Origin: Tabrizicola flagellatus
Lineage (GTDB): Bacteria; Pseudomonadota; Alphaproteobacteria; Rhodobacterales; Rhodobacteraceae
Assembly (NCBI RefSeq): GCF_008271465.1
Contig: NZ_VMDU01000011.1
Coordinates: forward strand, 34,561 to 98,560
DNA: 64,000 nucleotides
Reading direction: 5' to 3'
Under the pieces are notes generated by a model. It had not been told where the DNA came from. It worked only from the letters and a program-made list of their open reading frames with translations, and made no database searches. Positions within the stretch are counted from its first letter, which is position 1, and the number at the start of each line of letters is the position of its first letter. A program made the translations under genes and the position numbers. Below, in pieces: positions 24,150 to 37,863 of the stretch.

Positions 24150-25502
24150 CTACAGCGCCGAGAACCCGGCCTCGAGCGCCGAGAGGATCTTCGACACATC
24201 GGCCTCGGAGACCACCAGGGGCGGGGACAGGATGATGTTGTTGCCCGAGACGCGGATCATGACCCCGGCCTCGTAGGTGGCGCGATGCACCCTGGCGATG
24301 ACCTTCTTGTCGATGGGCGCCTTGGTGGCGCGGTCCGAGACCAGTTCCAGCGCGCACATCAGCCCGTGCCCGCCGCGCACATCGCCGATCACCGCATGCC
24401 GCGCCATCAGCGCCTGAAGCCCGGCGAACAGCTGCGCGCCCCGGGCGGCGGCGTTCCGGTGGACCTGCAACCGCTCGGTCTCCTTCAGGCAGGCGATGGC
24501 GGCGGCGGCGCCGACCGGGTGGCCGGAATAGGTATAGCCCGACCCGATCGCCCCCTTGCCGCTGGTGTCTTTCTCGAACACCTCGGCCACGGCTTCCGAG
24601 ATCATCACCGCGCCGAAGGGGAAGTAGCCGTTGGTGATCGCCTTGGCGGAAACCAGGAGGTCCGGCTGCACCCCCCAGTGGCGCGAGCCCGTCCAGCCGC
24701 CGGTGCGGCCGAAGGCGGTGATGACCTCGTCGGCGATCAGCAGGATCCCGTATTTCGAACAAAGCGCCCGCACCCCCGGCATGAAGCTTTCGTGCGGCGG
24801 GATCACCCCGCCCGCGCCAAGCACCGGCTCCATGATGAAGGCGGCGATGGTGGAGGCGTCCTGGAACCTGATCTCGTCCTCGATGGCCGCCAGGCACAGC
24901 TGTGCCAGCCGCGCCGGGTCGGTCTCGTTGAACGGGTTGCGGTAGGTGTAGGGGGCGGGCGTGTGGAAGCAGCCCGGCATCAGCGGCTCGTACTGGGTGC
25001 GGAAATTGGCGTTGCCGTTGACCGAGGCGCCCAGGGTATGCGTGCCGTGATAGCCCTTCTTGAGGCTGAGGAACTTGACCCGCCCGCCCTCGCCCCGGAT
25101 CTTGTGATACTGCCGGGCCAGCCGCAACGCGACTTCCACCCCGTCCGACCCACCGCTGGTGTAGAAGGCGCGGGACAGCCCGTCCGGAGCAAAGAAGGTG
25201 GCCAGCATCTCGGCCAGTTCGATGACGTTGTCGTTCGTGGTGCCACGGAAGATCGAATAGTAGGGCAGCCGGTTCAGCTGCGCCGCGATCGCGTCCTTCA
25301 CCGGCTGGCAGGAATAGCCGAGGTTGACGTTCCACAGCCCCCCCACCGCGTCGATGGTGCGGTGGCCGTCCACGTCGATGATCTCGACCCCTTCCGCCTC
25401 GCAGATGATGTCGGGCGGGTTGGCCAGGCTGTCGGCCGGATGCGCCATCGGGTGCCAGATGTGCCGGGCGTTGTGTTCCTTGAGGAAGTTGGAATCCTTC
25501 AT
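24150..25502 (-). CDS. Class III aminotransferase (omega-amino acid/polyamine:pyruvate type)
   Basis: A 450-residue PLP enzyme. The Schiff-base lysine is Lys287 (LLVSAKAITNGYFPFGAV) and the cofactor aspartate is Asp259 (LLIADEVITAFGRTG). Its N-terminus (HIWHPMAHPADSLAN) resembles the SpuC/putrescine:pyruvate and omega-amino acid transaminase group. It probably moves a terminal amino group to pyruvate, producing an aldehyde for the aldehyde dehydrogenase at 26152. The start overlaps the HAD stop (ATGA), and the operon order is ALDH, HAD, aminotransferase. The natural substrate is not evident. Confidence 0.9.
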   Translation of the reverse strand: MKDSNFLKEHNARHIWHPMAHPADSLANPPDIICEAEGVEIIDVDGHRTIDAVGGLWNVNLGYSCQPVKDAIAAQLNRLPYYSIFRGTTNDNVIELAEMLATFFAPDGLSRAFYTSGGSDGVEVALRLARQYHKIRGEGGRVKFLSLKKGYHGTHTLGASVNGNANFRTQYEPLMPGCFHTPAPYTYRNPFNETDPARLAQLCLAAIEDEIRFQDASTIAAFIMEPVLGAGGVIPPHESFMPGVRALCSKYGILLIADEVITAFGRTGGWTGSRHWGVQPDLLVSAKAITNGYFPFGAVMISEAVAEVFEKDTSGKGAIGSGYTYSGHPVGAAAAIACLKETERLQVHRNAAARGAQLFAGLQALMARHAVIGDVRGGHGLMCALELVSDRATKAPIDKKVIARVHRATYEAGVMIRVSGNNIILSPPLVVSEADVSKILSALEAGFSAL

Positions 25503-26155
25503 CGGGCGGTCTCCTGTTCCAGAAGCGCAAGCGCGCGGGCATAGCTTTCGCCGGGCTTGGTGACATCGAAATGGACGAAGGGCATGCCGACGGACTCGGC
25601 GCCCTTCAGGTTCCTCGCCTGGTCGTCCACGAAGACGCAGGCCGCGGGCGGCAGGCCCAGACCCTCGGTGACCATGAGGAATGCGCGGCGGTCGGGCTTC
25701 AGGATGCCGGTATGGGTGGCGTCCACGATCAGGTCGAACTCGGCAAGGAAGGGCAGTTTCGCTCGGAAATCGGCGCCGTAGAACAGGTCGAGCTCGTTCG
25801 AGAGGATCGCCAGCCGGTGCCCCGCGGCCCTGGCCTCTGCGATGGCCGCCAGCGCCTCGGGCCGGATCACCGCCGCCGGGTCCGCACCCCGGACGCGGCC
25901 GACGAACTGCGGAAATTCGGACCACGCCTCGCCCACCAGCGCGCCCGTCTCGCGCATGCGCAGCGCCCAGTAGTCGCGTTCCGTCATCTCGCCCGCCTGC
26001 ATCGCCCGCCAGGGCGCGTCCGAGGCCGGATCGAAGGGCCCCCGCCAGGTCAGCGTGCCGGGCGGCAGGCCCAGCGCGGCCTCGGAGAGTGCATGGGTCT
26101 CGAACAGGGTCTTCGAGATCACCCCGCCGAAGTCGAGGACCAGGGCGCGGCTCAC
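25499..26155 (-). CDS. HAD-family hydrolase
   Basis: A 218-residue haloacid-dehalogenase-superfamily protein, probably a small-molecule phosphatase. Motif I is LVLDFGGVIS (nucleophilic Asp followed by Gly rather than the usual second Asp), motif II is the LAILSNELD region, motif III the Lys in ILKPDRRAF, and motif IV VFVDDQARNL. The second motif-I Asp being Gly is seen in the YihX/dehalogenase-like branch. Its GTG start lies in a GTGA overlap with the aldehyde dehydrogenase stop, and its own stop overlaps the aminotransferase start, so the three genes are tightly coupled. Confidence 0.83.
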   Translation of the reverse strand: MSRALVLDFGGVISKTLFETHALSEAALGLPPGTLTWRGPFDPASDAPWRAMQAGEMTERDYWALRMRETGALVGEAWSEFPQFVGRVRGADPAAVIRPEALAAIAEARAAGHRLAILSNELDLFYGADFRAKLPFLAEFDLIVDATHTGILKPDRRAFLMVTEGLGLPPAACVFVDDQARNLKGAESVGMPFVHFDVTKPGESYARALALLEQETAR

Positions 26156-36833: not shown

Positions 36834-36834
36834 G

Positions 36835-37863
36835 TCACCGCGCGCCCCAGGTGTCGGACAGCCGGTAGCCCTCGGGCCAGGGATCGGCGGGATCCAGCAT
36901 GTGCTGATGCGTCCCCGTGATCCAGGCGCGGCCCGAGATCTCGGGCAGGATCGCGTCCAGATCGCCGACCTTCGCCGCGCCGACGATCCGCCCCTCGAAC
37001 TGCCCGCCGATCAGCGAGCGTGCGCGCAGCACCTCGCCCGGGCCGATCTGGCCCCGCGCAGCCAGGATCGCCAGCCGCGCCGAAACCGCCGTCCCGGTAG
37101 GCGAGCGGTCGATCTTGCCCGGCCGGATCGAGACGGCATGCCGCGTCTCCCAGCCATCGGCGACACGGGTCAGGGGCCCCGCGAAGAGGCAGAACGAAAA
37201 GTGCCGCCAGTCCGGGTTCTCGGGGTGGCGGAAGCCCAGCTGCTCATCGGCGGCCCGGGTGATCTCGACCCCCAGTCTCGCCATGGCATGGGCCTCCCCG
37301 GGCGCATGGGAAAGGCCGAGGGCGGCCACATCCACCACCACGAAACTGTCGCCGCCATAGGCCGTGTCCACCGTCAGACGGCCCAGCCCCGGCACGTCCA
37401 GCGGCACGTCCAGACGGTCGGCGAAGCTTGGCAGGTTCCGCACATGGACCCGCTCGGCCTTGCCATTCCGGCAGTTGGCGCGGACCTTGACGAGGCCCCC
37501 TGGCGCCTCGAGCACCAGTTCGGTCACCGGTTCGGACATGGGCAGGATGCCGCTGTCCAGCAGCACCGTCGCCACGCAGATCGAGTTCGAGCCCGACATC
37601 GGCGGGTTGTCCTCGGGCTCCATGATGATGAAGCCCATCTGCGCGCGCGGGTCCCTGGGCGGGACCAGGAGGTTCACATGCCGGAACACGCCACCGCGCG
37701 GCTCGTTCAGGACGAAGTTGCGCAGGGTCTGATCGCGCCAGAGCGCCTCGCGCATCTTCCACAGGGTCGCGCCGGGGGGTGGGGCGACCCCGCCCACGAT
37801 CACGTCCCCGACCTCGCCTTCGGCATGGGCCGAGACGACATGAATGGTCTTGGTGCTGCGCAT
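36835..37863 (-). CDS. Proline racemase family protein with Ser/Thr in place of both catalytic cysteines
   Basis: A 342-residue member of the proline racemase superfamily, whose members racemise proline, epimerise 4-hydroxyproline or dehydrate trans-3-hydroxyproline. The first catalytic position is Ser90 (NPPMSGSNSICVATV) and the second Thr256 (KIDRSPTGTAVSARLA). Known pairs are Cys/Cys, Ser/Cys and Cys/Thr; Ser/Thr fits none that I recall, so activity cannot be predicted. ATG 37863 has a GGAGG site; the longer frame to 37935 lacks family sequence. It precedes the DMT carrier and neighbours the IclR/tct catabolic locus. Confidence 0.88.
   Translation of the reverse strand: MRSTKTIHVVSAHAEGEVGDVIVGGVAPPPGATLWKMREALWRDQTLRNFVLNEPRGGVFRHVNLLVPPRDPRAQMGFIIMEPEDNPPMSGSNSICVATVLLDSGILPMSEPVTELVLEAPGGLVKVRANCRNGKAERVHVRNLPSFADRLDVPLDVPGLGRLTVDTAYGGDSFVVVDVAALGLSHAPGEAHAMARLGVEITRAADEQLGFRHPENPDWRHFSFCLFAGPLTRVADGWETRHAVSIRPGKIDRSPTGTAVSARLAILAARGQIGPGEVLRARSLIGGQFEGRIVGAAKVGDLDAILPEISGRAWITGTHQHMLDPADPWPEGYRLSDTWGAR

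Follow-up and report, generated by a model that had tools for sequence, protein, structure and literature searches.

The locus examined here raises the question of which compound a bacterium would take up and degrade with a Tct importer, a phospholyase, an APH-fold kinase, a UPF0261 protein, an aldehyde dehydrogenase (ALDH) and a class III aminotransferase (AT), arranged in two operons around one IclR gene. It lies in a 64,000-nucleotide stretch of Tabrizicola flagellatus DNA (assembly GCF_008271465.1, contig NZ_VMDU01000011.1, positions 34,561 to 98,560), hereafter the window. The rightward operon (28649-35898, + strand) reads tctC-tctB-tctA-phospholyase-kinase-UPF0261-SDR, the last gene coding for a short-chain dehydrogenase (SDR); the leftward operon (27633-24150, - strand) reads ALDH-HAD-AT, and the IclR gene, also leftward, lies between them (Table 1). 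An earlier note on this DNA had suggested a pathway for a hydroxylated amino acid or amino alcohol, possibly derived from collagen, and the open reading frame list and profile scans of the window proteins found all the genes it named where it had placed them. Our results point, with a probability of roughly 0.55, to a peripheral catabolic cluster that would take up compounds of the hydroxyphenylethylamine type and turn them into hydroxyphenylacetates, ready for ring cleavage by the homoprotocatechuate or homogentisate pathway.

The earlier note was right to see a catabolic unit here: the cluster is real, conserved and new in its composition. The grouping of its genes exceeds chance, because their order recurs in other genomes and one operator-like motif precedes both operons. 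The kinase has matches in 100 of the 198 family genomes searched (197 genera), and neighbourhoods were compared in loci picked by similarity to the kinase, the phospholyase or UPF0261, a few of which are other stretches, while contig ends cut some and some places are counted twice (e.g. L050/L192, L051/L078 and L040/L191). One set of 120 loci is made up of 40 kinase regions and 80 loci from a scan of named genomes with the phospholyase alignment (the best 80 of at least 590 confirmed); in all, 181 loci were scanned, of which 100 carry the UPF0261 type of the window. ALDH is present in 82 of these 100, IclR in 81, AT in 77, TctA in 61, the phospholyase and kinase in 58, HAD in 30 and SDR in 9. 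The gene order AT< IclR< TctC TctB TctA ALDH UPF was found 14 times without the phospholyase-kinase pair and 11 times with the pair placed between ALDH and UPF0261, and the UPF0261 regions of genomes lacking a top-scoring kinase have mostly the same core minus the pair. Because the same order occurs both with and without the pair, AT, IclR, the importer, ALDH and UPF0261 are the core of the cluster, and the pair is a cassette that is built into some clusters and stands by itself elsewhere. Regular separation of the kinase and phospholyase genes from TctCBA and UPF0261, which the earlier note had regarded as evidence against its proposal, was found in about half of the cases: the phospholyase is missing from the fetched stretch in 42 of the 100 UPF0261 loci, and among the 120 kinase/phospholyase loci AT and UPF0261 are both present in 46, one of them in 14 and neither in 60. 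The cluster is therefore better described as two modules than as one indivisible pathway.

The first indication of what the core degrades comes from its association with the homoprotocatechuate (hpa) genes. Two UPF0261 types were separated by PF06792 score across the 198 genomes, that of the window (131-163 bits, 73 genomes) and another (168-210 bits, 30 genomes), with 12 genomes carrying both and seven genomes with weaker or partial matches only being excluded from both; HpaD was counted when either of its types was present, TIGR02295 (64 genomes) or TIGR02298 (29 genomes). The window type of UPF0261 and HpaD occur together in 63 genomes, UPF0261 only in 10, HpaD only in 10 and neither in 115 (Fisher p 5e-30, phylogeny ignored), and the two genes are within 20 kb of each other in at least 15 of the 63. 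The other UPF0261 type, used as a control, showed no significant link (HpaD in 14 of 30 genomes, p 0.16). In the class-level set of 289 genomes, TIGR02295 scored above its cut-off in three, our own and two of one other genus; the latter two both carry the window type of UPF0261, and in one of them HpaD is 7 kb from it. The fetched stretch contains at least two hpa genes in 15 of the 46 loci with both AT and UPF0261, in 3 of the 14 with one of them and in 2 of the 60 with neither. In most rhizobial core loci an amino-acid permease stands in place of the Tct importer and is followed by hpa genes, whose representatives score above the curated cut-offs for HpaD, HpaE, HpaH and HpaI and below those for HpaF and HpaG. 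The T. flagellatus genome itself codes for HpaD, HpaE and HpaH above cut-off.

A second ring-cleavage route is found in the window, where a homogentisate cluster (17592-24145) stands directly left of AT. Relatives of its dioxygenase, fumarylacetoacetase and glutathione S-transferase (GST) are neighbours of the core in L110, L191 and L199 among the 181 loci, those of the metallo-hydrolase and the flavin adenine dinucleotide (FAD) hydroxylase also in L191 and L199, and the genome of L191 (G047) has neither HpaD type. The homogentisate cluster is thus a possible lower pathway for the products of the core, and the presence of such neighbours beside the hpa link means that hydroxyphenylacetates could exit by either ring-cleavage route.

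The UPF0261 protein, to which the earlier note could assign no chemistry, matches PDB entry 9mpy (E 1.5e-49, ~32% identity), which by its title is the UPF0261 protein Saro_1862 with bound acetovanillone. According to PMC13101465, N. aromaticivorans begins acetovanillone breakdown via the single-component kinase MarK, and the title of the PDB entry and that of the cited MarK paper together suggest that MarK is Saro_1862. By this similarity the window protein is predicted to be an adenosine triphosphate (ATP)-dependent phenol kinase or a phenol-binding protein, and its step now has a candidate chemistry that can be tested. The other UPF0261 type carries a fused ABC-transporter ATPase domain and has PF09370 and a BPD_transp_2 permease as neighbours (L195:5175-7370, L197, L198); PF09370 was among the recurring neighbours only in L194, L195, L197 and L198, all with that other type, no genome-wide search for it having been made. 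Taken with the co-occurrence of UPF0261 and HpaD, the hpa neighbours and the adjoining homogentisate cluster, the acetovanillone-bound UPF0261 protein of a species with a reported aromatic kinase, MarK, makes a hydroxyphenylethylamine the most likely substrate.

The same relative with bound acetovanillone would also suit a core that breaks down a non-amine aromatic, such as a hydroxyphenyl ketone or lignin-type phenol, with UPF0261 phosphorylating the phenol first and AT working in another direction. Tct importers usually carry acids, which agrees with such a role, as do the beta-oxidation-type genes (acyl-CoA dehydrogenases, enoyl-CoA hydratase, FadJ-like) that follow UPF0261 in 6 of 40 stretches (L160, L166, L169, L170, L176 and L184). 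However, AT accompanies UPF0261 in 77 of the 100 loci, the amino-acid permeases (15 loci), pyridoxal phosphate (PLP)-decarboxylase-like genes (6) and DAO-GCV_T, N-demethylase-like genes (7) of these loci fit amines, and the hpa lower pathway suits arylacetic acids, so that we consider a non-amine substrate improbable.

With regard to the cassette, our results agree with the assignment of the phospholyase to the ETNPPL/PHYKPL type made in the earlier note. Its nearest solved proteins are the phospholyase 5g4i (380 bits, E 1e-112) and the ethanolamine-phosphate phospho-lyase 6tor (349 bits, E 4e-103), followed by dialkylglycine decarboxylase (185 bits, E 2e-53), which places it by sequence nearer to solved phospholyases than to aminotransferases. 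Residues K264, D234 and Q237, which we take from the fold type to be the catalytic lysine and PLP-binding residues, are kept in 108 of 108 aligned rows. This supports a phospholyase rather than an ordinary aminotransferase, and its predicted reaction is the elimination of phosphate and ammonia from a phosphorylated beta-hydroxy amine. The best solved relative of the kinase is aminopropanol kinase (6ef6), again in line with the earlier note; the APH fold is present and its catalytic motif intact, and the kinase is predicted to phosphorylate a side-chain hydroxyl.

These relationships could also be taken to mean that the substrate of the pair is an aliphatic amino alcohol, 1-amino-2-propanol or ethanolamine for instance, and that the pair has no more than its regulator in common with an arylamine core. 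Besides the microcompartment-associated aminopropanol kinase and the two phospholyases named above as nearest relatives, this explanation gains from the occurrence of the pair outside the cluster. In a quick tree of 108 phospholyases (both genes were of sufficient length in 107 of the 120 loci, and Shimodaira-Hasegawa-like approximate likelihood ratio test, SH-aLRT, values were the only support computed), 33 stand-alone ones form a single clade (SH-aLRT 98), and no phospholyase column divides the clades at 85%. The 'core' label is clustered on this tree (17 changes against 35.5 in shuffles). Some members of the stand-alone clade are neighbours of NAPRTase and RF-1-domain genes; of the 40 kinase regions fetched, 10 contain a NAPRTase gene and 10 an RF-1-domain gene, and no such region carries the core. 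On the other hand, 11 loci keep the shared operon order with the pair placed between ALDH and UPF0261. Kinase position 135 is Trp or Phe in 61 of 61 cluster-type sequences and mostly Leu, Met or Gly in the stand-alone clade, whereas position 275 is Tyr or Phe in 61 of 61 and mostly Ser in that clade, and these aromatic residues would fit an aromatic substrate. When genomes were classed by their best kinase match, HpaD was present in 27 of the 31 with about 230 bits or more (one at 230.9; p 5e-10), but in only 15 of the 57 with 100-230 bits (odds ratio 0.5, no link), those below 100 bits being counted as kinase-free. We consider an aliphatic role of the pair unlikely on these grounds, and a role for the pair in the breakdown of hydroxyphenylethylamine-type compounds remains our preferred explanation. 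Stand-alone kinases beside NAPRTase genes were seen in L061, L066 (in our own genome, C6) and L070 with no phospholyase detectable in the fetched stretch, and the kinase may therefore do another job there.

The type of chemistry that the earlier note had attributed to the pair is thus probably right, and the origin it had attributed to the substrate is probably wrong. Breakdown of 5-hydroxylysine or of some other hydroxylated amino acid, perhaps from collagen, by a route resembling the animal pathway would account for the presence of a kinase, ALDH and aminotransferase together with a phospholyase whose family includes PHYKPL. However, the neighbours of the cluster are aromatic-pathway genes, namely those of the hpa pathway, a few of the homogentisate pathway and some PLP-decarboxylase-like and N-demethylase-like genes, which indicate aromatic amines, and AT is nearest to omega transaminases (best solved relative 5lh9). 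The proline-racemase-family gene that had drawn attention to hydroxyproline is present next door, by its NCBIfam model a trans-3-hydroxy-L-proline dehydratase, but it is not conserved with the cluster, being kept in just 1 of the 100 UPF0261 loci (L032, from the same genus). A hydroxylysine or collagen source is accordingly very improbable.

Control of both operons by one IclR protein, as previously suggested for this locus, is supported because the operator-like motif precedes tctC and ALDH and no other window gene. The matrix (32.8 bits) rests on 52 distinct iclR-tctC intergenic regions, that of the window included, and gives the consensus tt..AACCAa.GGTTcaAATAATGAACC. The tctC site is the single match of this pattern with up to three mismatches in the whole genome, with 0 in the control; the ALDH-side site is too divergent for the pattern and was found with the matrix. 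The sole other score above 20 in the window is the opposite-strand overlap of the ALDH-side site, and the matrix gave no matches on the reversed window or five Markov windows. Similar sites precede ALDH in L032, L033, L072 and L073 (scores 29-41) and lie between the hpaR-like and phospholyase genes in L083 and between the decarboxylase-like and UPF0261 genes in L098.

The pathway that we infer from these observations, with its substrate, reactions and order of steps, would begin with import by TctCBA, or by the amino-acid permease in most rhizobial clusters. Amines with a plain side chain (tyramine/dopamine type) would then be converted by AT, a predicted arylethylamine aminotransferase, to the arylacetaldehyde. 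By analogy with the aminopropanol kinase/phospholyase route, the pair would likely add beta-hydroxylated amines such as octopamine and noradrenaline (Ar-CHOH-CH2-NH2): the APH-fold kinase would phosphorylate the side-chain hydroxyl and the phospholyase would remove phosphate and ammonia to give the same arylacetaldehyde as transamination, a reaction type shared with that pair and with ETNPPL/PHYKPL. For both kinds of amine, ALDH is predicted to oxidise the arylacetaldehyde to the arylacetate. UPF0261 may act with ATP on the phenolic ring hydroxyl, as we suppose for its Novosphingobium relative, and the HAD hydrolase might later remove the aryl phosphate, in which case the ring phosphate would be a protecting or trapping step. 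IclR would govern both operons through the common operator motif, and optional extras would be the N-demethylase-like genes for N-methylated amines and the decarboxylase-like genes for amino acids. A dedicated bacterial two-kinase pathway for hormone- and neurotransmitter-type amines, with a UPF0261/MarK-like kinase on the ring hydroxyl and the APH kinase with the phospholyase on the side chain, is put forward more tentatively, at somewhat less than even odds.

Several observations weigh against a hydroxyphenylethylamine pathway. Most known substrates of Tct importers are carboxylates, and TctC is nearest to BugD. As no phospholyase column separates the cluster and stand-alone clades, the active site of this enzyme carries no clear substrate signal, and the decarboxylase-like gene, to which we would give an aromatic specificity, has diaminobutyrate decarboxylase as its best model, far under the cut-off. 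The co-occurrence p values take no account of phylogeny, 10 of the 73 genomes with this UPF0261 type carry neither HpaD type, and 5 of 7 such genomes outside the family were without TIGR02295, the one type searched there, at threshold. In T. flagellatus, the hpa genes lie on a different contig from the window, the HpaF- and HpaG-like genes that stand among or next to HpaD, HpaE and HpaH score below their cut-offs, the best HpaI-like match reaches 160.8 bits (cut-off 368.8) and PF03241, for HpaB, gave 0 matches in the genome, so that 4-hydroxyphenylacetate would need another hydroxylase unless the input is already a catechol. HpaB is rare overall (19 of 198 genomes) and was found in 7 of the 63 genomes with both UPF0261 and HpaD versus 4 of the 10 that have HpaD and lack this UPF0261 type; its scarcity suggests that the substrates are already catechols or that another hydroxylase is used.

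Parts of the proposed pathway resemble known systems. 1-Amino-2-propanol degradation includes a phospholyase step. What sets the present pair apart from that microcompartment-associated kinase/phospholyase route (6ef6) is its connection with a Tct importer and an aromatic-amine core; general profile scans, which did not include a dedicated shell search, found no shell protein among the window genes scanned. ETNPPL/PHYKPL (AGXT2L) and 5g4i share sequence family and PLP-site residues with our phospholyase, although the substrate predicted here is an aryl amino alcohol phosphate. The MarK/9mpy system and the Hpe/Acv acetovanillone pathways resemble the cluster in the UPF0261 family and in having a kinase and a phosphatase in an aromatic pathway. 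Unlike MarK/9mpy and Hpe/Acv, the UPF0261 subfamily of the window is tied to HpaD and the core has AT and ALDH instead. HpeD is a phosphatase, as stated in PMC9618137, and HpeHI a two-component kinase of another fold, as stated in PMC12167813. The HpaDEFGHI and HmgA/FahA pathways are the expected lower pathways, with genes in the genome or window, whereas this cluster would stand above them as a funnel specific to amines. Octopamine and synephrine dehydratases (EC 4.2.1.87 and 4.2.1.88) carry out a net conversion to 4-hydroxyphenylacetaldehyde. The same net conversion would here be split into kinase and phospholyase steps, at the cost of ATP. We know of no gene for these dehydratases, and a limited name search of the literature found no paper on them.

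If the proposed pathway is correct, it would give a function to a gene cluster that is widespread in alphaproteobacteria and also seen in Granulosicoccaceae records, would tie an uncharacterised UPF0261 subfamily to homoprotocatechuate metabolism, and would give this subfamily an enzymatic role in the catabolism of aromatic amines. It would also provide candidate genes with which microbes degrade octopamine, synephrine and catecholamines, signal compounds of animals and plants, including genes for the long-described octopamine and synephrine 'dehydratase' conversions, with a kinase-phospholyase cassette that is plugged into different catabolic operons.

Table 1. Genes and predicted operator sites of the cluster and its neighbours (window positions).
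Feature	Position	Strand	Families, models and remarks
FAD aromatic hydroxylase open reading frame	17592-19394	-	PRK08132 type
Metallo-hydrolase	19228-20178	-	
Fumarylacetoacetase	20182-21438	-	above cut-off
Homogentisate 1,2-dioxygenase	21560-22927	-	
GST	23022-23684	+	perhaps maleylacetoacetate isomerase
MarR	23681-24145	+	
Class III aminotransferase (AT)	24150-25502	-	PRK07481 subfamily; PF00202; NF005683 712 bits (cut-off 575)
HAD-IA hydrolase	25499-26155	-	PF00702; TIGR01509 above cut-off
ALDH	26152-27633	-	PuuC/KauB-like; PF00171; best solved relative KauB 6b4r
Predicted IclR operator before ALDH-HAD-AT operon	27637-27664	-	matrix score 28.6; outside training set
IclR-family regulator	27740-28531	-	PF01614, PF09339
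Predicted IclR operator, iclR-tctC intergenic	28606-28633	+	matrix score 40.3
TctC, periplasmic binding protein of importer	28649-29584	+	PF03401; best solved relative BugD 2f5x
TctB, small membrane subunit	29606-30145	+	PF07331
TctA, large membrane subunit	30153-31643	+	PF01970
Phospholyase	31636-32913	+	ETNPPL/PHYKPL type; nearest solved 5g4i, 6tor
APH-fold kinase	32910-33869	+	best solved relative aminopropanol kinase 6ef6
UPF0261 protein	33866-35110	+	PF06792, PF23189; NF002676 561.2 bits (cut-off 556)
SDR	35107-35898	+	PF13561; optional part
EamA	35913-36791	-	
Proline-racemase family	36835-37863	-	trans-3-hydroxy-L-proline dehydratase by NCBIfam, above cut-off

Within the rightward operon, the overlap that had been described for nearly every junction holds from tctA onward, with 8 bases shared by tctA and the phospholyase gene and 4 at every later junction, and does not hold for tctC-tctB and tctB-tctA, which are separated by gaps of 21 and 7 bases; the ALDH-HAD and HAD-AT junctions of the leftward operon overlap by 4 bases each. 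The ALDH scored 522 bits with the PuuC model, below its cut-off of 850. Beyond the right end of the cluster, the trans-3-hydroxy-L-proline dehydratase-type gene adjoins a dapA-type gene (above cut-off) and the EamA transporter gene (36835-38896).

Other neighbours of the core were seen in the compared loci. A glutamine-synthetase-like gene lies beside it in L163, L166, L167, L176, L180 and L199, and a cytochrome P450, sometimes with a 2Fe-2S ferredoxin, in L163, L166, L180, L199, L036, L038, L047 and L062. A MoaF-family gene (PF10703/PF17409; MoaF is known from a monoamine regulon) adjoins an SDR gene at the end of an hpa operon in L095 (20322-21101) and in like places in L099 and L112, and these SDRs are 54-55% identical to that of the window.

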